From a bacterium (GTDB lineage: Bacteria > T1Sed10-126): a stretch of DNA of 11,090 nucleotides. The DNA lies in the NCBI GenBank assembly GCA_003557545.1, contig PWOD01000031.1, positions 1 to 11,090 on the forward strand, written 5' to 3'. The notes below the pieces were generated by a model, which was not told the DNA's origin, did not search any database, and was given only the letters and a program-made list of their open reading frames with translations. The position numbers and the translations under genes were made by a program. Shown one piece after another: positions 1-11,090 of the stretch; positions within the stretch are counted from its first letter, which is position 1, and each line of letters begins with the position of its first letter.

Positions 1-3000
1 TCAAATCATCCATCCAGGTAATGAACTCCCAATGTTCTGAAGCGACTGCCTCCAGAGGCAGCGTCTCCCCGGCTCTGACATCAATTGTTTTAGGAAGTTC
101 GGCCGCAGTATAGGTCTCCCCATCTACAACTACAACACCATCACCAATAATATTCAGTTCAAGACTGTAACTATGCTGTTTAAAAACGGCTGTACAGTAT
201 TTGTCAGAATTTATTAATAGTTCCTGCTGTGCAATGACCCCCCCGAGATTTCCAATCCAACGATCAAAATACCAATATTCATCGGCCAGAGCTTCAAGAT
301 CAACTAACTGTCCGCCCTTGACGGGAATTTCGACAGTAACATCTTCTGTCCCATAGAGCGAATCCCCCTCCAGTTCTATAAAACCCTGACCTACAATATC
401 AAGGTAAAGGGTATAATCAGCTATTTTAAAATGTGCAACGACCGATTTGCTGGAATCGATATATAACTGCTGCTGGCTATCAACTCCAGAGAGATCCCCC
501 GTCCAGCGATCAAAACTATAAAATTCATCGGCTATTGCCTGAAAATCAACCAGCTCACCCCCCCAGACAACCCTTGTCACTATGACATCATCCACGGTAT
601 AAACCGTATCACCATCAACTACCCGACCCGCACCTTCAATATCAATTGTTAAGATATAAGTATCCCGGTTAAAATGGGCCTTAACAGCCTTACTGGAATC
701 GATATAAAGCTGCTGAACCGGCTGTTCTCCCTGAAGATCTTCAGACCAGTCGATAAAATACCAGTGGGTGTCCGGGACTGCTTCCAGCAGTATTGTTTCA
801 CCCTGATTCACCTCAACTGTTGCCGGCTGGTCATAGCTAACACCATCAACCACAACCGCTCCTTCACCCTGCATATCAATATCGAGAGCAACTCGATTAC
901 GAGCAAAATGAGCGGTGACCTGCTTGCTGGAATCAATTAACAGAACCCCGGTATCATTTGTCCCGGTTAAATCACCCGTCCAATGAGAAAAATGATAATA
1001 CCCCTGATGAATCGCAGAAAAATCAATTTCCTGTCCCGCATAGACCTGTTTGATAACCGTGACATCCTCCACAGTATAGAGAGTATCACCGGCAAGAACA
1101 GTGCCCTGGCCTTCAATATCGATGGTTAAATTATATTGAGTTCGGGAAAAATTGGCGATGACCGAACTATTAGAGTTTATGGTTAAACTTTTCTCGGCCT
1201 CTATACCACTAAGATTCCCGGACCAACTGACAAAATGAAAGTAGTGGTCGGGAATCGCTAGAAAATCCAGTTCCTGCCCGGCATAAACGGTTTTTACAAA
1301 GGTAAAGCTATCGCCTGAATAAAGTTTTCCATCAATCTCTATAGAACCCTGGCCTGTAATATCAACAGTCAGAAGATAGGTATCACGGGCAAAGGTGGCC
1401 TGAACCTGCTTGCTAGAATCGATAAACAGCTCTTGAACCGGCTGGGGACCGGATAGATCCTCCGCCCATTCAGAAAAATGCCAGTTGACTCCCGGGTCTG
1501 CTTCAAGGGTCAATGTTTCACCGGCGCTGACTGTGATCAGTTCTGAGCTTTCATAGATCGTTCCATCAAGATCAACCGCTCCCGACCCGGAGATGATCAG
1601 ATCAACTGTGTAATTACGGCGCGAAAAATTTGCTGTAACAGTTTTATCAGAATCGATCAGAAGTTGTTGTTCGGTCTGGACCGCTGACAGATCACCAGAC
1701 CACTGAATAAATTCAAAATATTCACCGGCCACCGCCGTTAAATCAACCAGTTCACCACCATAAAAACTAATTGTTTGAGGAAGCTGAGTAGAACTATAGG
1801 TTGTATCACCAACCAGCAGTTCACCCTGACCCACGATATCAACCGTCAAGCTATATTCAGTCTGTTGAAAATTAGCAACCACAGTTCGATCGCGATCGAT
1901 CAGCAGCTGTTGAGGACGAGCAGTACCTGAAAGATCCCCATCCCAGCCGGTGAAATACCAGTGTTGACTGGCACTGGCGGTAAACTCCGGTTCCTCTCCG
2001 GCATAAACAGTCACCGTCCGGGGAAGTTCGGCAGCCAGATAGGTAGTATCACCAACCGTCATGGTTCCTTCGCCATTAATCTCCAGAGTCAAGCTATAGG
2101 TATCTCTGCCAAAATTAGCAACAACAGCTTTGTCTTGATCAATCAATAGCTCCCGGGTTAGCTGCTGGCCATCCAGATCACCGCTCCAGCCAATAAAATG
2201 ATAATAATCTGCTGGTATTGCCGACAACTGAACTGTCTCACCGGCATAAATTGTCTCTACAACTGGAGTATTCAGATGTGAGTATCCCGTATCTTCCAGA
2301 TCAACATAACCATGTCCAGAAATATCTACCGTCAGGGTATAAGTGTCACGAACAAAATGAGCTGCCAGATCAGCCGGACCGGTAATCTCCAGCTGAATAT
2401 TCTCAGTTAGATCGGATGTTACTCCGCTCCACCCGGCAAAATGATAATATTGCCCGGAGATTGCCTCGATTTCCAGTTGCTGACCAGCATTCACCTGGAT
2501 CTGAGTGGGAAACTGTGTGTCGGCGTAATGCTGCCCATCCACGGCGACCACACCATCACCGATTATTTCGAGCTCAAGATAATAGGTATCACCAAAGTTA
2601 GCTCTGATATATTTATCTGAATCAATCAGCAGATTGGCCAACTTCTCGGTGTCTGAAAGGGCACCGGACCACTCAGTAAAATACCAGTACTGATCCGGTA
2701 TTGCTTCCAGACTGATATTTTCTCCACCATAAAAAATCAATTCAAGCGGGGCCGAATCAACAACTACAGCCGTATCCCCCAGCTCAACAACACCGCCACC
2801 GGCAATATCGACGGTCAACGTATGGGTGTCCCGCCGGAAATGTCCTGTAAGCTGATGATCTCCCTCAATAAATAATGGGCGGGAAGACTGAGCGCCAGCA
2901 AAATCACCAGACCACTGATAAAAATGCCAGTACTGGTCCGAGTTGGCCTCGATCCAAATAGTCTCCCCGCCAGGGACAGCAACAATTTCCGGCAGACTGT

Positions 3001-6000
3001 CAGCTTGATAAACAACACCATCGACAACAAGCTGGCCGCTACCCTCAACATCAAGAGTTAACTGATAGCTATTATCAAAACTGGCAGTAACAAATTTATC
3101 TTCAGAAAAATATAATTGGTGATTAATTTCAGACCCCGAAAGATCACCTTCCCAGCCGGTGAAATACCAGTAATCATTGGCATAAGCAGCCAGTTCAACC
3201 GTCTCGCCTCCCCAAAACTCCAGCGTCCGCGGAAGTTGTTGATAACCGTATGAATCAGCTCCAACTTCAACTGTCCCCTGACCTTCTACCGCAATTGTCA
3301 GCTGATGCCGATTACGTTCAAATTTAGCGGTCAACTGCTTATCCGTATCGGCCTGCACAGAGATTGCCGGCTGAGCACCAGGAGTATCTCCAACCCAGCC
3401 CACCAGATCGGTCCAGGTCTGGAGATGATGATAGGTGTCGGGAACCGCCTCCAGCTCAATTATCTGTCCGGCAGCTACTACCAGTTGAGTGGCAAAAGCA
3501 TCTGCGACATAGATTTCACCGTCTATCTTTAAGCGACCAGAGCCAATTAAATCAACTGAAATAACCCGGGTATCCTGAACAAAAATACCGGTTACAGCTT
3601 TATCCGAATCAATGAACAAAGACTGTTCAAAAACCGAACCATCAAGATCGCCGCGCCATTCGGAGAAGAGCCAGAACTCTGAGGGTGAACTGGAAATTGT
3701 TATCGTCTCACCGGCCTGAACTGTTCGAGTTGATGGCAGTTGATCATAATTATAGGTCTGACCATCAACAGTTAGTGAACCCTGACCTTCAACTTCCAGG
3801 CTCAGGCTGTACTGATCCTGGGTAAAATGGGCTGTCACTCCAACATTAGACTCAACCAGCAGCTGCTGAGTTGTATCGGATCCGGTAACTGTACCTGAAT
3901 ATCCAGAGAAGTGATAATACTGGTCGGGAACAGCGATAAATTCAACGGTTTGGCCGCCATCTACCGACATCTGCCGGGGAACTTCGTCAACCGTATAGGG
4001 TTGCCCATTTAAGATTAAAACCCCCTGTCCCTCAATATTTATACTCAAATTATGTTGATCTCGGGCAAATTGGGCTTCAACAGTTTTATTGGAATCCATC
4101 CACAGCAGAACTTCTTCAGCGGTATCCTGAAGATCACCTGCCCATTCTGCAAGGTGCCAGTATTCATGGGGCAGAGCCTGCAAACTAACCGTTTCCCCTG
4201 CCACAACTTCGATCGATTGTGGAAGCTCTGCCGCCGTGTAAAGCTGGCCTTCCACAACAAGATCACCAGAACCTGACAGGTTGAAATTTAAGCTATAGGT
4301 ATCGCGCTGAAAATAAGCAATTATTTCAAGATCCGACTCCACAAACAGGGCACCGGTGGGGCTGGTCCCTGTCAGATCATCACTCCAGTAATCAAACCGC
4401 CAGAACTGGTCGGCCAGGGCCTCAACTGTCACTGTTTCACCAGCCCAAATAGTATGGGTGGCCGGCGTTTCATCAGCCGCATAAAAATCCGATCCAACCT
4501 GGATACCACCAGCGCCATCAACTGCCAGGCTGAGCTGATAACTATCCTGCTGGAAATGGGCAGTCACCTCGAGATTTTGATCAACCAGCAGCTCAGCCTG
4601 CTGCTCTGTCCCAGAAATATCCCCTGTCCATTGGAAAAATTGAAAATAATCAGCAGCAATTGCTTCCAGGGAAACAGTCTCTCCCGCCGGAAATGATTTT
4701 GCAACTGGCGCCTGCTGGTGAGAAATCATCTCGGCAGCGGCCTGGACAGCTCCGGATCCAACAATGTTTACCGTCAACAGATAGGTATCCTGGGCAAAAT
4801 TTGCTGTCACAGTTTTATCATCGTCAAAAAACAACTCCTGCTCGGGAGTTGTTTGAATCAAATCACCAGTCCATCCGGAAAAATGCCAGTTGGACTCAGC
4901 AGTCGCATTCAACGAGACTGTTGAACCAGCAACCACCGGCTGAACAAAAAGAGTATCACCGCCGGGCAATAACGTCCCATCAATTTCAACCTCGCCCCGT
5001 CCCTCCAGAACAACTGTCAACTGATAAATCTGCTGATCAAAGAGAGCCGTAATCTCCAGGTCAGAGTTAATATACAACTCGGCCCCGGGGCTATCACCGG
5101 TATGGTCTCCCTGCCAGTTAGAAAACTCCCAAAACTGGTGAGAACTGGCCTCCAGATCAACCGTCTCACCGGCATAAACAGTATGAACTATTGGAGCTGT
5201 CGTATGATCATAAGTACTACCGTCAATCTTAACAGCTCCCTGTCCCACAATATCCAGGATCAAACTATAGGTATCACGTAAAAAATCAGCCCTGACTGTT
5301 TTATCAGAGTTAAGATAAAGCACCCGCTGTTGATTATCACCACTCAGATCTCCGCTCCAGCCAGCAAAATGATAGTAGTAGTCAGATTCAGCCCAAAAAT
5401 CAAGGGTTTCTCCGGCCGGAATATCAAGCGTTGCGGGTGAACTATCCGAACCATAGATATGGCCATCGATTGCAACGGTTCCCTGACCGTTGATAACCAG
5501 ATCCAACTGATAAATATCACGGTCAAAACTGGCAGTTACTGCTTTATCTGAATCGATAAAAAGCTGGTTTGTAAGAATTTCACCCTGGAGATCCCCCGAC
5601 CAGTCAGCAAAACTCCAGTAGCTCTCAGGGAATGCTGTAAGAGTAACCGTTGTGCCGGCCGAAACCGGAACTACAGGGGATGGATCAAGATAGCTGTACG
5701 TTTCCCCGGCAACCTGCACCATACCCTGTCCATCGATCTGGAGCTGGAGTTGATGAACAGCCCTGTCAAACCACAATTCAACCTGCTTGTCACCATCGAT
5801 GTAGATTGTCCGTTCTGACGTGGTGCCAGTTAAATCACCGCCCCAACCAAGAAACTCATGGTACTGGTCAGCGACAGCGCTCAAAGCAACTGTTTCCCCA
5901 CCGAAGACTGTTTCAACCACCGGAGAATCTGCTTCCGAGAAGCTGTTGCCAGAGATTTCAACTGCACCAGCACCATAAATGTCAACGGTCAGAGTAAAGG

Positions 6001-7186
6001 TATCCGTTTCAAACAGAGCTGTCAGCTGTTTATCTGTGTCGGCAAACAATGTTCCCGCCGGCAGAGTTCCGGACAGATCACCGGACCATTCAATAAAACT
6101 GGTAAACTGTCCAGCAACGGCCTGAATTGAAACGGTCTCACCGGCCGGCAGATCAATTACTGTAGATTCTCTATATTCAGTTCCTTCGACAAGAAGCTCA
6201 CCCTGACCATCAATAACCAGTTTAAGGGAAAAGTTATCCTGTTGAAAATTTGCTGTGAAGTCCTTATTTGAATTGACAAGAATTACTTTTTGAGACTGCT
6301 GCCCGGTTAGATCACCAGTCCAGCCAACAAAGCTATAATAATCACCGGCCACCGCTTCCAGGGCAACTGTATCCCCGGAATAGACTGTCACAGTTCCCGG
6401 ACCATAGTAAACCTGCCCATCAATTACTATCTCTCCCTCACCGATTAGATCGAAAACTAAATCAAACTGCTGCCGTTGAAAATTAGCTGTAACTGATTTG
6501 TCACCATCGATAAACAACTCCCGGAGTGCAATATCTCCCTGCAGATCACCTGACCAACCGGCAAACTCCCAGTGATTCAACGGCAATCCCTCGAGAACCA
6601 CTGTCTCACCACCATATACAGTTATGTCATGTGGTGCTGAACCGGCCACATATATCTCACCATCAAGATTAACCCGGCCCGAGCCTGAAATGTCCACAAC
6701 GAGAGTAAAGCTATCCTGACTGAAATTAGCCGTTACCTGCCGGTCACCCTCGATTAACAGCTGCTGAAACGGCTCAGTCCCGGATAAATCACCACTCCAG
6801 CCGGCAAAACTCCAATATTCTCCATCTTCGGCTTCAATATCAAGCAGCGTTTCCAGCGGTATTCGTAAATCAGTTGAATAGTTATAGCTCTGCCCTCCAA
6901 CCCGAACAGCTCCTCCCCCATCAATTACAAGCCTGAGATCATACTTTTGTCGTTTAAATTCTGCACTCACCTGTTTATCGGAACTGAGACTTATCTGGCG
7001 AACCGGCCCACCACCATAGATATCTCCAGACCAGGAGAGAAAACTCCAGTCTGTATCGGCCACCGCCTCAAGAGTGACAGAGGTACCGGCCGGATAAACA
7101 AAGATTTGACCATCCTCAGCAGCAATCCCATCTATATAAATTGTCCCTGAATCTGGGTCGTTTACAGTAATCCGATATAGCACCTG
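1..7186 (-). repeat. Array of about 30 divergent InlB B-repeats, mostly 81 residues each
   Basis: Each unit starts with a strand of the form D-T-Y-x-L-T-V-D-I-x-G-Q-G, continues with x-I-D-G-x-x-Y and A-G-E-T-V-x-L-E-A, then the aromatic core Y-W-x-F-x-x-W-S-G-D-L, and ends with L-x-I-D-S-D-K-x-V-T-A-x-F. The closing Phe falls at residues 249, 327, 408, 486, 564, 645, 726, 807, 888, 969, 1050, 1131, 1212, 1293, 1374, 1461, 1542, 1622, 1703, 1783, 1864, 1945, 2026, 2104, 2185, 2266, 2344, 2425 and 2507. Spacing is 81 in 19 units, 78 in five, 80 in two, and 82 and 87 once each. The units are clearly diverged from one another, so this is a protein repeat array of some age rather than a recent DNA expansion. 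Confidence 0.92.
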
Positions 7187-7702
7187 ATCGTCAACAATAT
7201 CAAATGGCTGTGAAATGTCTGATTCGAGGGGATCAAGGGTGGTTTCCGACGAGTCCCAGTCACCACCGACCGGGTAGAGAGGAATCCCGGAAAATTTCCG
7301 GGTCTTGAATTTAAGCCGGAAACCCTCACCAATCTGATTGATCCGTAAATTATCAAACTGTGCCACGCCTCCCGAACTCATCACCGTAGTAAAGCCTGAC
7401 AGTTGAGCCCCGTTTGTCGGATCATTTTCAATAGAAACCATTATTTCCTGATCAGAACCAGTTACACGGTTACCAGAACTATCCTGAATCTCAACCCGAA
7501 TCGGCTCACCATTAACACCGGTTATAGTCTGACCTGCAGAGGTTGTGGAGGGCTGATTGATAATACCAAGCTGAGTTGCGGAAGAGGCCAGAACTGGAGA
7601 TAACAAGAAAGGGAGGAAAATAAAAACAGACCCGATAGCCAAAAAAACTACCAGAAGGAAGAACCTGTCCCAGCACCTGGCGTCGTCGGGAATCCCAAAC
7701 AT
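1..7702 (-). CDS. Giant secreted InlB-repeat protein (N-terminal 2,567 residues; 3' end outside window)
   Basis: One reading frame runs without a stop from the ATG at 7702 to the left edge, translated by eye with the frame re-checked at every repeat boundary. Residues 1-39 are a signal peptide. Residues 40 to about 170 form an Ig-like domain of the Big_1/invasin kind (a G-N-R-V turn near 77-80 and an F-D-N-L-R-I strand near 116-121). From about residue 173 onward there are 29 complete and one partial divergent InlB B-repeats (PF18998-like), each with the core Y-W-x-F-x-x-W-S-G-D-L-S-G, then D-S-D-K-x-V-T-A-x-F. The visible part alone exceeds about 270 kDa. The start is fixed within narrow limits by an in-frame TAA at 7721-7723; the ribosome site is weak (AAGAAAG, 13 bases upstream). 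The likely role is a cell-surface or secreted adhesin or structural fibre; the ligand is unknown. By analogy with the gene at 9050-11090, a C-terminal sorting domain is expected beyond the left edge but is not seen. Confidence 0.93.
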   Translation of the reverse strand, partial: MFGIPDDARCWDRFFLLVVFLAIGSVFIFLPFLLSPVLASSATQLGIINQPSTTSAGQTITGVNGEPIRVEIQDSSGNRVTGSDQEIMVSIENDPTNGAQLSGFTTVMSSGGVAQFDNLRINQIGEGFRLKFKTRKFSGIPLYPVGGDWDSSETTLDPLESDISQPFDIVDDQVLYRITVNDPDSGTIYIDGIAAEDGQIFVYPAGTSVTLEAVADTDWSFLSWSGDIYGGGPVRQISLSSDKQVSAEFKRQKYDLRLVIDGGGAVRVGGQSYNYSTDLRIPLETLLDIEAEDGEYWSFAGWSGDLSGTEPFQQLLIEGDRQVTANFSQDSFTLVVDISGSGRVNLDGEIYVAGSAPHDITVYGGETVVLEGLPLNHWEFAGWSGDLQGDIALRELFIDGDKSVTANFQRQQFDLVFDLIGEGEIVIDGQVYYGPGTVTVYSGDTVALEAVAGDYYSFVGWTGDLTGQQSQKVILVNSNKDFTANFQQDNFSLKLVIDGQGELLVEGTEYRESTVIDLPAGETVSIQAVAGQFTSFIEWSGDLSGTLPAGTLFADTDKQLTALFETDTFTLTVDIYGAGAVEISGNSFSEADSPVVETVFGGETVALSAVADQYHEFLGWGGDLTGTTSERTIYIDGDKQVELWFDRAVHQLQLQIDGQGMVQVAGETYSYLDPSPVVPVSAGTTVTLTAFPESYWSFADWSGDLQGEILTNQLFIDSDKAVTASFDRDIYQLDLVINGQGTVAIDGHIYGSDSSPATLDIPAGETLDFWAESDYYYHFAGWSGDLSGDNQQRVLYLNSDKTVRADFLRDTYSLILDIVGQGAVKIDGSTYDHTTAPIVHTVYAGETVDLEASSHQFWEFSNWQGDHTGDSPGAELYINSDLEITALFDQQIYQLTVVLEGRGEVEIDGTLLPGGDTLFVQPVVAGSTVSLNATAESNWHFSGWTGDLIQTTPEQELFFDDDKTVTANFAQDTYLLTVNIVGSGAVQAAAEMISHQQAPVAKSFPAGETVSLEAIAADYFQFFQWTGDISGTEQQAELLVDQNLEVTAHFQQDSYQLSLAVDGAGGIQVGSDFYAADETPATHTIWAGETVTVEALADQFWRFDYWSDDLTGTSPTGALFVESDLEIIAYFQRDTYSLNFNLSGSGDLVVEGQLYTAAELPQSIEVVAGETVSLQALPHEYWHLAEWAGDLQDTAEEVLLWMDSNKTVEAQFARDQHNLSINIEGQGVLILNGQPYTVDEVPRQMSVDGGQTVEFIAVPDQYYHFSGYSGTVTGSDTTQQLLVESNVGVTAHFTQDQYSLSLEVEGQGSLTVDGQTYNYDQLPSTRTVQAGETITISSSPSEFWLFSEWRGDLDGSVFEQSLFIDSDKAVTGIFVQDTRVISVDLIGSGRLKIDGEIYVADAFATQLVVAAGQIIELEAVPDTYHHLQTWTDLVGWVGDTPGAQPAISVQADTDKQLTAKFERNRHQLTIAVEGQGTVEVGADSYGYQQLPRTLEFWGGETVELAAYANDYWYFTGWEGDLSGSEINHQLYFSEDKFVTASFDNSYQLTLDVEGSGQLVVDGVVYQADSLPEIVAVPGGETIWIEANSDQYWHFYQWSGDFAGAQSSRPLFIEGDHQLTGHFRRDTHTLTVDIAGGGVVELGDTAVVVDSAPLELIFYGGENISLEAIPDQYWYFTEWSGALSDTEKLANLLIDSDKYIRANFGDTYYLELEIIGDGVVAVDGQHYADTQFPTQIQVNAGQQLEIEAISGQYYHFAGWSGVTSDLTENIQLEITGPADLAAHFVRDTYTLTVDISGHGYVDLEDTGYSHLNTPVVETIYAGETVQLSAIPADYYHFIGWSGDLDGQQLTRELLIDQDKAVVANFGRDTYSLTLEINGEGTMTVGDTTYLAAELPRTVTVYAGEEPEFTASASQHWYFTGWDGDLSGTARPQQLLIDRDRTVVANFQQTEYSLTVDIVGQGELLVGDTTYSSTQLPQTISFYGGELVDLTAVAGEYFEFIQWSGDLSAVQTEQQLLIDSDKTVTANFSRRNYTVDLIISGSGAVDLDGTIYESSELITVSAGETLTLEADPGVNWHFSEWAEDLSGPQPVQELFIDSSKQVQATFARDTYLLTVDITGQGSIEIDGKLYSGDSFTFVKTVYAGQELDFLAIPDHYFHFVSWSGNLSGIEAEKSLTINSNSSVIANFSRTQYNLTIDIEGQGTVLAGDTLYTVEDVTVIKQVYAGQEIDFSAIHQGYYHFSHWTGDLTGTNDTGVLLIDSSKQVTAHFARNRVALDIDMQGEGAVVVDGVSYDQPATVEVNQGETILLEAVPDTHWYFIDWSEDLQGEQPVQQLYIDSSKAVKAHFNRDTYILTIDIEGAGRVVDGDTVYTVDDVIVTRVVWGGELVDFQAIADEFYSFDRWTGDLSGVDSQQQLYIDSSKSVVAHFKIADYTLYLDIVGQGFIELEGDSLYGTEDVTVEIPVKGGQLVDLEALADEYWYFDRWIGNLGGVIAQQELLINSDKYCTAVFKQHSYSLELNIIGDGVVVVDGETYTAAELPKTIDVRAGETLPLEAVASEHWEFITWMDDL
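7187..7585 (-). other. N-terminal Ig-like (Big_1/invasin-type) domain of the giant protein
   Basis: Residues 40 to about 172 follow the signal peptide and are not part of the repeat array. The pattern resembles bacterial Ig-like group 1 domains: an N-Q-P start, an A-G-Q-T strand, V-E-I-Q-D-S-S-G-N, a G-A-Q-L-S-G turn, then G-V-A-Q-F-D-N-L-R-I and G-E-G-F-R-L-K-F. A short linker with S-Q-P-F-D-I-V leads into the first repeat. Such domains often cap or space surface proteins. The family assignment is by eye and moderately sure. Confidence 0.6.
7586..7702 (-). other. Signal peptide of the giant repeat protein
   Basis: Residues 1-39 contain an unbroken hydrophobic core from about F14 to L34 (rich in F, L, V and I), followed by S-P-V-L-A and then S-S-A-T, a good signal peptidase I site after A39. 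The n-region is unusual: it has two aspartates (D6, D7), a cysteine (C10), a tryptophan, and only two arginines (R9, R13), so it lacks the usual lysine-rich start. The cysteine is not in a lipobox context, so a lipoprotein is unlikely. The peptide predicts export across the inner membrane by the Sec pathway. Confidence 0.8.
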
Positions 7703-8060: not shown

Positions 8061-9026
8061 TCATTCCCCGAGATAATAACTAAAGGCAATTTTGTGCAGG
8101 TTGCCCAGTTCACCGTAGGGAACTATCGCATAATCAAAAACCATGCTGTCATCCAGCTGATAGCCAAATCCAGCGGTTAAACCCCCATCAATATCAAGGT
8201 TTCCATCATATCCAGCCCGCAGGGCGACCTGGTCGGTAACATCCCATTGTAATCCTGCCATGACCCCGGTCTGGCCACTATTAATTTGATACTCAAAATC
8301 AAGATGTGTGCTGACCGGAATCGGAAGATCACGATCCCGGGACCAATCATAACTTATCCCAAACCGGGTCAACAATGGCAAATCATCACTGGTACTATCG
8401 AATTCAACCGACGTCCCAAGATTAGCCAGTACCAGCCCGGCTGACAGCGGCAAATCGGGCAGAGGAGAACGCCATTGTACTCCGGCATCCATGGCCAGAG
8501 CTAGGGCTGTTTGTACATCAATCTTCAAACTTAACAACTTAACAGAAGTTCCCCATGAAAGATTGTACCAACGTTCGCCATAACCAAAACTACCAACAAT
8601 ATCTGAACCACTAAAACTACTTCCGGTAGGTCGCAGAATATTGCCATCATAATCTATCTCTTTTTCCGAACCATAGCTCACATACCTCAAACCGGCGGCG
8701 ACTGCTGCCCAATGATTAATCCTGTAAGTATAGTCGAGGTTGCCAGAACCTATGTCCTCAACCAGCTGCTGATAGGTAAACTCTAAATCATTGGACCGGC
8801 TAAGAGCTATTCCAGCCGGGTTATAATGTAAAGAAGCCGGACCCGAAACAGCAGCAAGGCCAGCCCCACCCATAGCCGGACGGGCAGCTCCAGAACCCAT
8901 TCGTAAAACCTCTGCAGCCGTCTGGCCCGCATCACCGGCCAGAACTCCTCCAGGAGAAATCACCGCTGCCATCAGGAAACCAGTTAAGATCAATCCCCAA
9001 AACTTGTAATTTAAAAAAACCTTCAT
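8061..9026 (-). CDS. PorV/PorQ-family (UPF0164-like) outer-membrane beta-barrel protein
   Basis: A 321-residue protein, typical length for this family. Residues 1-30 are a clear signal peptide (M-K-V-F-L-N-Y-K, a hydrophobic core, then G-V-L-A before G-D-A-G). Residues 44-74 carry the family signature: G-S-G-A-A-R-P-A-M-G-G-A, then L-H-Y-N-P-A-G-I-A. The rest is alternating amphipathic strands, ending with the characteristic G-L-T-A-G-F-G-Y, D-Y-A-I-V-P-Y-G-E-L-G and H-K-I-A-F-S-Y-Y segment. In the type IX system PorV is the outer-membrane partner that receives the C-terminal domain of cargo. Here the gene directly follows one encoding such a cargo, which supports a role in exporting or anchoring it, though PorV/PorQ-family members outside Bacteroidota are little studied. 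I chose the ATG at 9026 because it gives a normal signal peptide and has GGAG 8 bases upstream. The in-frame ATG at 9053 overlaps the upstream stop as ATGA, would add nine residues and has no good ribosome site. Confidence 0.85.
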   Translation of the reverse strand: MKVFLNYKFWGLILTGFLMAAVISPGGVLAGDAGQTAAEVLRMGSGAARPAMGGAGLAAVSGPASLHYNPAGIALSRSNDLEFTYQQLVEDIGSGNLDYTYRINHWAAVAAGLRYVSYGSEKEIDYDGNILRPTGSSFSGSDIVGSFGYGERWYNLSWGTSVKLLSLKIDVQTALALAMDAGVQWRSPLPDLPLSAGLVLANLGTSVEFDSTSDDLPLLTRFGISYDWSRDRDLPIPVSTHLDFEYQINSGQTGVMAGLQWDVTDQVALRAGYDGNLDIDGGLTAGFGYQLDDSMVFDYAIVPYGELGNLHKIAFSYYLGE

Positions 9027-9034
9027 ATTAACAA

Positions 9035-9038
9035 CTCC
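9035..9038 (-). promoter_or_regulatory. Ribosome binding site that favours the 9026 start of the porV-like gene
   Basis: GGAG on the minus strand ends 8 bases before the ATG at 9026. It lies between the stop of the upstream gene and this ATG, and inside the extended frame from 9053, so it decides between the two possible starts. Confidence 0.6.
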
Positions 9039-9049
9039 AGTCAAATAAC

Positions 9050-11090
9050 TCATCGGATTATCGCCAGCTTTCCAGTCTCACTCTGTCCTGTGTCACGATC
9101 CCTAAAGTAATAAAGGTAATACCCACTTGCCACGGCATCTCCCGAATTATTTGTTACATCCCACTCAACAAAATTAACATCTCCCTCCCGTTGTTTGTCG
9201 CCAGGACCGTAGTTGTGATCGAATACCCGATTTCCAGTGACGGTATAGATTTCCACCTCAAAACGCTCACTTTCGGTGGCATCAAACTGAAATCTAATCC
9301 CATCGGAGGGATAAGTTCTTTCGGCATAAAAGGGATTTGGACCGACAACAAAATCTCGTACCCCGGGTTCGGCCGGTTTAGCCATAATTTGAAAAACCGA
9401 GAAACCCTCAATAATCGCCACCACCGTATCACTTTTTACCGCGCTATGTTCAATTCCCCGGCTGGTCCAACGATATCCTCCGGCCTGCTCCTCCAGCCGG
9501 TAAATACGTAAATCTTCCGTCGTCAACTGATCATTACCCAAAAATTTTGAGCTGTCATACGGGATACTCACCTGCATAGTCAATTTCTCTGGGTCCCGGG
9601 AAACAGTGACCCGGGTAAGGGAACCATCAGCAAGTTGATCGACTTCACTGTACAGCGTCCCGGCGGCGACATTTGCCTCGTTCACAGCAGTTTCTAACCC
9701 AATAGCTCCGGTACTCACACTAACAGTTAACCGGGGAGAAATTTCCGCCGAAGCAGCCCTGAAAAGCCGTCCGAGACCCCGATAAACAGTATCCGCCCCG
9801 TCGGCGGCGGCCACTGCAACCCGGGCGACATCATCCCGAACAAACCGACGTGCTACCGAAGCAGTATCGTAAAGTTCCGAACTGACAAATTCCTGAACTA
9901 TCGTAAACCAAAAAGTCCCGGTGTCCGGCACAACAACCGGTCCGGCAAACTCTTCGGCGATCCCCGTTTGGTGAAGAACAATCTGCTCGTAAAAAATCGA
10001 ACTATCGGATTGATCAAGGATCTGTACAGTAACAGTATCACCCTGCACTGCATCCAGCCGGAGACTCGCTTGAAAGGACGTGTCCCCGATCAACTCATTT
10101 TCATAGGGGCTAACTGCTTCAAGCAGTTGCCGGTAGTTGACATTAACAGTATCACTGGCGAATACCACTCCATCACTGATAGCCTGGAAAATAATCTCAT
10201 TTTCACCTTTTACCAGTTCCAGCTGCTGGGACCAGGTGAGTTCAGTATCATCGGCGGGGCTAACCCATTCTACCGGTTCCAGCTGATTAATCTGAATACG
10301 TAACGTATCCCCCTCAAAAGCAGCCATTGTTCCTGTCGCATCGATTACTCGCGGCAGCGTTTCTCCTGTGGCCGGAGTCAAAATGGTCAACTCATCTGGA
10401 TAGTTATTAACCGTAACCAGAGCCTCCGCCGGCTCAGCCCCTCCATGCAAAACAACCGTCAGCTGTTTAATCCCCCGAGAAAGTTCAATCTCTTCAAACT
10501 CCCACTCGGCCCCGGGTAAATCCAGAACCTGCGGCTCACCCACCACAACTCCATCAACTTTCAATATGACAGTATCTCCCGGCTGACTCCCCCCGCTGGT
10601 CCCGCCAACAGTAAGTCGATCGGTTCGGGTCCTGAATTGATCTGCTGGATAGGTTATCGACAGCGTACGGACCGGTATAAACTTCACCGAAATTGTTACG
10701 TCGTCAAACAGCTGTATAGTTGTTGTGGATTCCTCAGGTTCCGAGATTGCACCTACATCACCGATCCAGCTGTAAAATTCATAGCCCGAATTGGGCACAG
10801 CGGAAATCTCCAAAGAGCTGCCTTCCACCACCGTTGTATCCGAGATTATTTCACCATTAACTGTTATATGTCCATTGTACGGTTGACTAACGGTCAATTC
10901 ATAGACAATAACTTCCGGGACAAACAAGGCGGAAATGGTTACGTCGGTATCGCTCTGCAGAATCGTCTCCACCGCAGTCGTATCGGCAATACCGGCGACC
11001 TCACCGGTCCAGCGCTTAAACAGATAGCCGCTGTCTGCCACCGCCTCCAGCCCCACAGTACCCCCCGCCATAAAGATAAATGTATCTCCA
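9050..11090 (-). CDS. Large secreted repeat protein with C-terminal sorting domain (C-terminal 679 residues; 5' end outside window)
   Basis: The frame is open at the right edge. The Met at 11071 is inside a repeat, so it is not the true start. Counting visible residues from 11089, there is a partial InlB-type repeat (1-56), a complete 81-residue repeat (57-137, with G-Y-E-F-Y-S-W-I-G-D), and two Ig/glucodextranase-B-like domains (about 138-233, with Y-P-A-D near the start, and 234-321, beginning L-T-I-L-T-P-A). A long beta-rich region (322-575) ends in the F-S-V-F-Q-I-M motif common before sorting domains. The last domain, 576-679, is FlgD-Ig/type-IX-like and ends in G-K-L-A-I-I-R. No cysteine is present. 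It is probably a surface or secreted adhesin-like protein exported through a PorV-dependent route. The stop overlaps an ATG of the porV-like frame, so the two genes are most likely co-transcribed. It is probably a paralogue of the giant gene at 1-7702; the ligand is unknown. Confidence 0.9.
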   Translation of the reverse strand, partial: GDTFIFMAGGTVGLEAVADSGYLFKRWTGEVAGIADTTAVETILQSDTDVTISALFVPEVIVYELTVSQPYNGHITVNGEIISDTTVVEGSSLEISAVPNSGYEFYSWIGDVGAISEPEESTTTIQLFDDVTISVKFIPVRTLSITYPADQFRTRTDRLTVGGTSGGSQPGDTVILKVDGVVVGEPQVLDLPGAEWEFEEIELSRGIKQLTVVLHGGAEPAEALVTVNNYPDELTILTPATGETLPRVIDATGTMAAFEGDTLRIQINQLEPVEWVSPADDTELTWSQQLELVKGENEIIFQAISDGVVFASDTVNVNYRQLLEAVSPYENELIGDTSFQASLRLDAVQGDTVTVQILDQSDSSIFYEQIVLHQTGIAEEFAGPVVVPDTGTFWFTIVQEFVSSELYDTASVARRFVRDDVARVAVAAADGADTVYRGLGRLFRAASAEISPRLTVSVSTGAIGLETAVNEANVAAGTLYSEVDQLADGSLTRVTVSRDPEKLTMQVSIPYDSSKFLGNDQLTTEDLRIYRLEEQAGGYRWTSRGIEHSAVKSDTVVAIIEGFSVFQIMAKPAEPGVRDFVVGPNPFYAERTYPSDGIRFQFDATESERFEVEIYTVTGNRVFDHNYGPGDKQREGDVNFVEWDVTNNSGDAVASGYYLYYFRDRDTGQSETGKLAIIR
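9053..9364 (-). other. FlgD-Ig/type-IX-like C-terminal sorting domain
   Basis: The last 104 residues begin with G-V-R-D-F-V-V-G-P-N-P-F, the usual entry strand of these domains. They continue with I-R-F-Q-F and V-E-I-Y-T-V-T-G-N-R-V, then V-E-W-D-V-T-N-N-S-G-D-A-V-A-S-G-Y-Y-L-Y-Y, and close with K-L-A-I-I-R. This order of strands is typical of FlgD Ig-like and Por-secretion C-terminal domains, which target cargo to the outer-membrane translocon and are often cleaved on arrival. It resembles type A sorting domains more than type B. The family match is by eye. Confidence 0.8.

Follow-up and report, generated by a model that had tools for sequence, protein, structure and literature searches.

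Why would a gene for a PorV-like outer-membrane barrel lie directly behind a gene whose product ends in a sorting-type domain, and is such a barrel the partner of that one protein? This question is raised by a stretch of 11,090 nucleotides, hereafter the window, which is the entire contig C53 (PWOD01000031.1) of the bacterial assembly GCA_003557545.1. The assembly (G000; 2.15 Mb in 239 contigs, 92% complete) is one of the two genomes in the analysed set, G000 and G001, from T1Sed10-126, a GTDB placeholder for an uncultured lineage that is in use as a phylum name (PMC12942990). On the minus strand of the window, a truncated gene (11089..9050) comes first and the barrel gene (9053..8061) second; 358 bases further on, a giant repeat gene begins (7702..2). 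With a probability of roughly 0.68, we favour the reading that the first two genes belong together as a module for type IX-like export, in which a repeat protein with a C-terminal sorting domain (CTD) would be received by a PorV/PorQ-type barrel, and each barrel would serve its own subclass of CTDs. The features are as follows.

9050..11089, minus strand: cargo gene, 5' end lost at the contig end, 679 amino acids (aa) visible; InlB-B-type repeats, then a sorting-type CTD
9053..9358, minus strand: CTD of the cargo, Ig-like all-beta fold, residues 578-679, ending in GKLAIIR
9050..9053, minus strand: ATGA overlap, joining the cargo stop codon and the first ATG of the barrel frame
9035..9038, minus strand: GGAG, ribosome-binding-like, 8 bases ahead of the second ATG (9026)
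8061..9053, minus strand: outer-membrane barrel of the PorV/PorQ family; 330 aa if read from the first ATG, 321 aa if read from ATG 9026
about 8937-9026, minus strand: signal peptide of the barrel, followed by the FadL-type barrel
2..7702, minus strand: giant repeat protein, next gene after the barrel; 2,567 aa visible, 3' end off the contig

The visible part of the cargo carries two InlB-B-type repeats near its N-terminus (PF18998, 69.8 bits, best stretch residues 63-137). In profile searches its CTD matched PorZ (2e-9), PorU (1e-7) and two CTDs from SprA-PorV complexes (2e-4 and 1e-3). A structural model of the CTD (pLDDT, the predicted local distance difference test, was 83.8 overall and mostly 94-98 across the domain) was nearest to PorZ in a fold search (5m11, E 4e-6), followed by weaker matches to PorU (6za2), FlgD and the SprA-bound CTD of RemZ (8gl8_D). 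The matches to FlgD_ig (PF13860) and CHU_C (PF13585) were weak and both under the cut-off, and the type B CTD model TIGR04131 in NCBIfam did not match the cargo. As judged from profiles and the modelled fold, the CTD is type A-like, with a predicted Ig-like beta-sandwich related to known CTDs of the type IX secretion system (T9SS). An earlier interpretation made from the DNA letters alone, here called the sequence-only reading, had proposed such a sorting domain, and the searches bear it out. It had also described the cargo as giant; the visible 679 aa are cut off by the contig end, and the giant repeat protein is the next gene, 7702..2.

The barrel scored 135.5 bits against NF033709, the model of the PorV/PorQ family (cut-off 90), with residues 44-326 aligned to model positions 1-324, and its paralogues in the genome scored 141-167 bits. 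It also matched PF19572 above the gathering score (36 bits, cut-off 27). The scores were below the cut-offs of the two T9SS equivalog models, at 52.6 vs 250 bits for PorV (NF033710) and 101.2 vs 220 bits for PorQ (NF033711). The best profile matches were to PorV chains (E 1.6e-27), with much weaker matches to FadL and TodX, and there was no match to UPF0164 in Pfam or to PorP/SprF barrels among the Pfam and NCBIfam models. When the barrel was modelled (pLDDT 72.5), the best Foldseek match was PorV in the SprA-PorV-substrate complex (8gl6_F, E 4e-13). With VIA-align, however, PorV (6h3i_F, Z 27.0) was hardly ahead of FadL (Z 26.6), and the assignment to a family therefore rests on sequence. The frame at 8061-9053 is thus a PorV/PorQ-family barrel, as the sequence-only reading had it, rather than one that groups with UPF0164 porins. 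The FadL-like fold, and the appearance of FadL and TodX in both the profile and the fold searches, would also fit an ordinary FadL-type uptake porin without a role in secretion, for which the upstream protein captures a substrate at the surface. We regard this as very unlikely: NF033709 and PF19572 are matched above their cut-offs, PorV from T9SS complexes heads both the profile and the fold searches, the neighbours bear a T9SS-like CTD whatever their other domains, and the genome encodes SprA.

The arrangement in the window is one of several in the genome. G000 encodes six close barrels, of which the other five are 50-56% identical to that in the window, and four more distant family members. 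All six close barrels and two of the four distant ones, and hence eight of ten in all, lie directly behind a CTD gene, with a spacing of -11 to +23 bases between the two frames (hypergeometric p about 1e-12 for the eight of ten), and the adjacency of cargo and barrel is not due to chance. There are several pairs in this one genome and no single housekeeping PorV.

The stop codon of the cargo gene and an ATG of the barrel frame do overlap in a shared ATGA at 9050-9053, as the sequence-only reading had noticed, but translation of the barrel probably does not begin at this ATG. Judged from the sequence, the true start is probably ATG 9026, 23 bases past the cargo stop, because GGAG precedes it at a fitting spacing, it opens the predicted signal peptide (MKVFLNYK...) and an MK start lies at roughly this place of the alignment in the paralogues on C73, C231 and C77. 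ATGA-type overlaps are also found at the pairs on C77 and C198 and at several pairs in G001, and on C119, C136 and in several G001 pairs the overlapping ATG is the only one on offer. The tight coupling is therefore real for the group of pairs, though the barrel in the window probably starts after the cargo stop. Patterns of promoters and terminators in the barrel region showed no excess over chance.

The second genome of the phylum, G001, has the same layout, with some 13 CTD genes and 10 or more barrels, mostly in pairs; its contig C118 holds two complete pairs in tandem and, at the contig start, the tail of a third barrel. When named genomes were scanned with a ten-row alignment of close paralogues as the query, 79 barrel loci were obtained, 70 of them with a readable upstream gene, and a single-barrel query gave no matches. 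The gene immediately upstream ended in a CTD at 46 of these 70 loci from other phyla, compared with 11 of 471 other genes there (p = 3e-38), with the limitation that the search was seeded with paired barrels and may favour paired loci. The next gene downstream was CTD-ended at 5 of 66 loci. Paired loci made up 20 of 35 in Elusimicrobiota, 6 of 7 in Hydrogenedentota and 6 of 7 in Aerophobetes, and the records named Nitrospira, Marinifilum and Nealsonbacteria among the scanned genomes may be mis-binned. The conserved adjacency for which the sequence-only reading had proposed a search recurs in the other genome of T1Sed10-126 and in several other phyla.

If the pairs belong to a type IX-like system, the translocon should be found in the same genome. 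SprA (Sov) is present in G000, split over two contigs, with an N-terminal part of 1,004 aa at the end of C23 and a C-terminal part of 699 aa at the end of C86. Both halves matched the Bacteroidota model weakly and each alone was under the cut-off, and the part on C23 shared 32% identity with a SprA-like protein of 1,826 aa in G029, across 889 residues. Full-length relatives in other genomes reached the model cut-off or matched a profile built here, and with a profile from six such proteins strong SprA matches were found in 20 of the 23 named genomes with these barrels. A first impression that G001 lacks SprA was overturned by a 52% identical N-terminus at the end of its contig C25. The PorU-type sortase, which the sequence-only reading had also named as a component to look for, was not detected: no match to Peptidase_C25, the catalytic part of PorU, was found in G000 or G001 at E up to 1, and the domain was present in 6 of 11 genomes searched. 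For the motor and ring, no significant match to the GldM and GldN models was obtained in any of the searched genomes, not even in those with both SprA and Peptidase_C25. GldM was dropped as a test for a motor because its absence even where SprA and Peptidase_C25 are present makes it uninformative. The missing GldM and GldN, together with PF13860 and PF13585 matches that stay under the cut-off, would agree with a different explanation, that the CTD is a mere Ig-like end domain of the FlgD or FN3 type in a surface-anchoring pair that does without SprA or type IX-like translocation and uses, for example, another export route. However, the CTD matches PorZ, PorU and SprA-bound CTDs in profile searches, and SprA is found in G000 and in those 20 of 23 named genomes, and we give this explanation about as little credence as the uptake porin.

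Next to the question of whether the pair exports is the question of whether it is specific. Across the six close pairs of G000, distances between barrels were correlated with distances between their CTDs (r = 0.78, p = 0.005), and the correlation was stronger for 17 pairs with permutation inside genomes (r = 0.86, p = 5e-5), which indicates that the pairs travel together. A tree of the CTDs had two main classes, and one clade (support 99/92) united the CTDs of C53, C77 and G001 C118a with those of two unpaired giant proteins on C133. G000 has about 40 CTD genes, and roughly 30 of them have no adjoining barrel. Strict one-to-one pairing is ruled out by these numbers against about 10 barrels, and the sequence-only reading went too far on this point. 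Since some of the unpaired CTDs group with that of the window, a barrel probably serves, to go by the sequences, a CTD subclass and not a single partner. The observations in favour of the sequence-only reading are the recurrence of the pairs within and beyond the genome, the several pairs per genome, the lack of a single housekeeping PorV, the presence of SprA and the matching distances; binding of this cargo by the barrel would be a prediction from them.

The same numbers can be read in another way, namely that the barrels are interchangeable shuttles for any CTD, the pairs are copied as units and adjacency sets dosage only. Such shuttles would suit the ratio of about 40 CTD genes to about 10 barrels, matching distances could be produced by joint copying alone, and PorV of Flavobacterium takes different CTDs via a plastic pocket (PMC10994853). 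In contrast, the six barrels diverge by about 30-55% in sequence yet keep their CTD neighbours, the two CTD classes each have their own barrel type in G001, and the pairing persists across phyla. We consider shared shuttles unlikely, although they are the most serious competitor to barrels that each serve a subclass.

The second CTD class has its own distribution. In G000 it comprises about 13 genes, which end in W.P.LASGTYIYLI.G.G.SSS.TLTIIR and are found on C80, C11, C115, C82, C8, C113, C4 and C136 (18253-19941 of L045). A barrel never follows these genes in G000, whereas both related CTDs in G001 (C6 and C79) are followed by one. A search of G000 for a barrel to go with the unpaired CTDs of this class yielded nothing beyond a 39-aa tail where contig C168 ends (E 0.006).

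From these results and from known systems, a sequence of steps can be proposed for the module. Both cargo and barrel would cross the inner membrane by Sec, and the cargo would then pass into a translocon of the SprA type. There the barrel, having docked where SprA opens laterally, would bind the CTD of the cargo and leave together with it; substrate CTDs bind PorV loops inside SprA (PMC10994853). As a sortase of the PorU type was not detected, the CTD would stay uncut and the barrel would remain as a non-covalent surface anchor, in the way that PorV holds PorU and PorQ holds PorZ in Porphyromonas. Barrels would have multiplied along with their cargo, each taking its neighbour first and probably also unpaired cargo with a similar CTD.

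Several points weigh against this proposal. The NCBIfam model of type A CTDs, TIGR04183, did not match the cargo at E up to 0.1, and by fold alone PorV and FadL are about equally near the barrel. About 30 CTD genes have no barrel alongside, and the matching distances are also expected from joint copying without specificity. The absence of Peptidase_C25, GldM and GldN is based on family models and a 92% complete assembly in 239 contigs, and these models are perhaps too narrow, as GldM is missing also from genomes with SprA and Peptidase_C25.

Partner barrels are known from other bacteria. In Porphyromonas gingivalis, the pairs PorU:PorV and PorZ:PorQ anchor at the surface, with the CTD protein keeping its CTD and bound 1:1 to the barrel (PMC5562754). 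Among known CTDs, those of PorZ and PorU are the nearest to the ones studied here, the barrels obtain higher scores from PorQ models than from PorV models, and porU and porV are neighbours by locus number in P. gingivalis (PG0026 and PG0027). In contrast to P. gingivalis, six or more close pairs occur per genome, a C25 sortase was not detected, and the cargo consists of repeat proteins and not of a sortase or a lipopolysaccharide carrier. In Flavobacterium johnsoniae, type B cargo has the gene for a cognate PorP/SprF-like barrel directly downstream, with some cross-talk; unpaired cargo shares one shuttle, and the barrel anchors the cargo (PMC12618676, PMC9143113). The gene order is the same in the window, and the overall picture is similar, but here the barrel belongs to the PorV/PorQ family and the CTD has a type A-like Ig fold, unlike the PorP/SprF barrels and type B CTDs of F. 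johnsoniae. The family, the fold, the presence of SprA and the CTD fold are shared with PorV in the T9SS of Bacteroidota, where one PorV takes all type A cargo, in contrast to the about 10 family members found here, most of them tied to a neighbour.

According to reviews, the type IX system occurs in Bacteroidota and certain related phyla, and its genes are missing outside them (PMC11285876). SprA, PorV-type barrels and CTD cargo, with the barrel and cargo genes adjoining, were found in genomes filed as Elusimicrobiota, Hydrogenedentota, Aerophobetes, Lindowbacteria, Firestonebacteria and T1Sed10-126. It thus seems that a type IX route extends beyond the phyla in which it is usually found and that it employs many barrels tied to cargo in place of a single common shuttle. 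None of the components is new in kind. The differences lie in the expansion of PorV/PorQ-type barrels alongside cargo of their own, in a sortase that is apparently lacking and in the wider spread over phyla. No description of pairs between PorV-family barrels and CTD proteins was found in a literature search whose coverage left out most subscription journals and all preprints. A more far-reaching version can be put forward tentatively, with a rather low probability. It describes a type IX-like system outside the Fibrobacteres-Chlorobi-Bacteroidetes (FCB) phyla with SprA and CTD cargo, without a sortase or a Gld-type ring and motor, where the single PorV has been replaced by barrels that permanently hold their own class of cargo, some with a tail that reaches into the periplasm and is built of tetratricopeptide repeats (TPR), and where ExbB, ExbD and TonB may provide the energy. 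If the pairs are specific, they would provide a large natural set of barrel-CTD pairs for working out how recognition is governed, a question that concerns both CTD types, and would suggest that barrel-bound anchoring predates the sortase or stands without it.

The TPR tails were seen in three of the six close barrels, on C231, C119 and C136, which bear a proline- and acid-rich linker and a C-terminal TPR domain; the barrel genes at L043, L044, L045 and L051 have this order of PorV-family barrel, proline/acid-rich linker and TPR domain. The PorP barrel of Porphyromonas is linked to the cell wall through PorE, which has a TPR domain (PMC9143113), and by analogy one could guess that the fused TPR domains make a PorE-like tie to the cell wall. 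A barrel with a TPR tail also occurs at L055 (G001 C102, about 6035-12549, minus strand), between a CTD protein and a second PorV-like barrel, and the row continues with ExbB (PF01618), ExbD (PF02472) and TonB_C proteins. This set could possibly be a power source for a system without GldL and GldM. On C153 of G000, a CTD gene matching that of L055 is followed by the start of a barrel at the contig end.

The giant repeat gene downstream of the barrel in the window has 22 Flg_new_2 stretches, and its visible 2,567 aa, which end at the contig edge, contain no CTD. It is probably a further CTD cargo, as far as its sequence tells, with a CTD of the same subclass as the window cargo, because its N-terminal domain is 54% identical to that of a complete 3,337-aa protein on C133 that ends in a CTD of this subclass. 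The repeats are also alike (48% over 395 aa), yet the contig ends have no common 20-mer, and a continuation of the gene into C133 is not claimed.

Other loci contain further SprA-like and PorV-like genes. Second SprA-like frames of about 1,110-1,160 aa lie beside a longer SprA in the same genomes (G050:C265, G043:C8, G054:C39 and G063:C298). At L058 (G027 C105, 766-3417, minus strand), a protein of 883 aa with a weak SprA-like stretch is encoded directly behind a CTD-barrel pair, in a genome with no clear full-length SprA. In G000, Tad/Flp-pilus-like genes (CpaE-, RcpA- and CpaB-like by eye) lie directly 3' of the C-terminal part of SprA (L081, C86, 364-7000, minus strand). Finally, seven loci in Endomicrobia/Elusimicrobiota (L166, L168, L169, L172, L176, L182 and L185) have a stand-alone PorV-family barrel without an upstream CTD gene, next to a conserved gene of about 214 aa on the opposite strand; they are apparently one orthologous locus, and the barrel is perhaps the shared PorV of those genomes.

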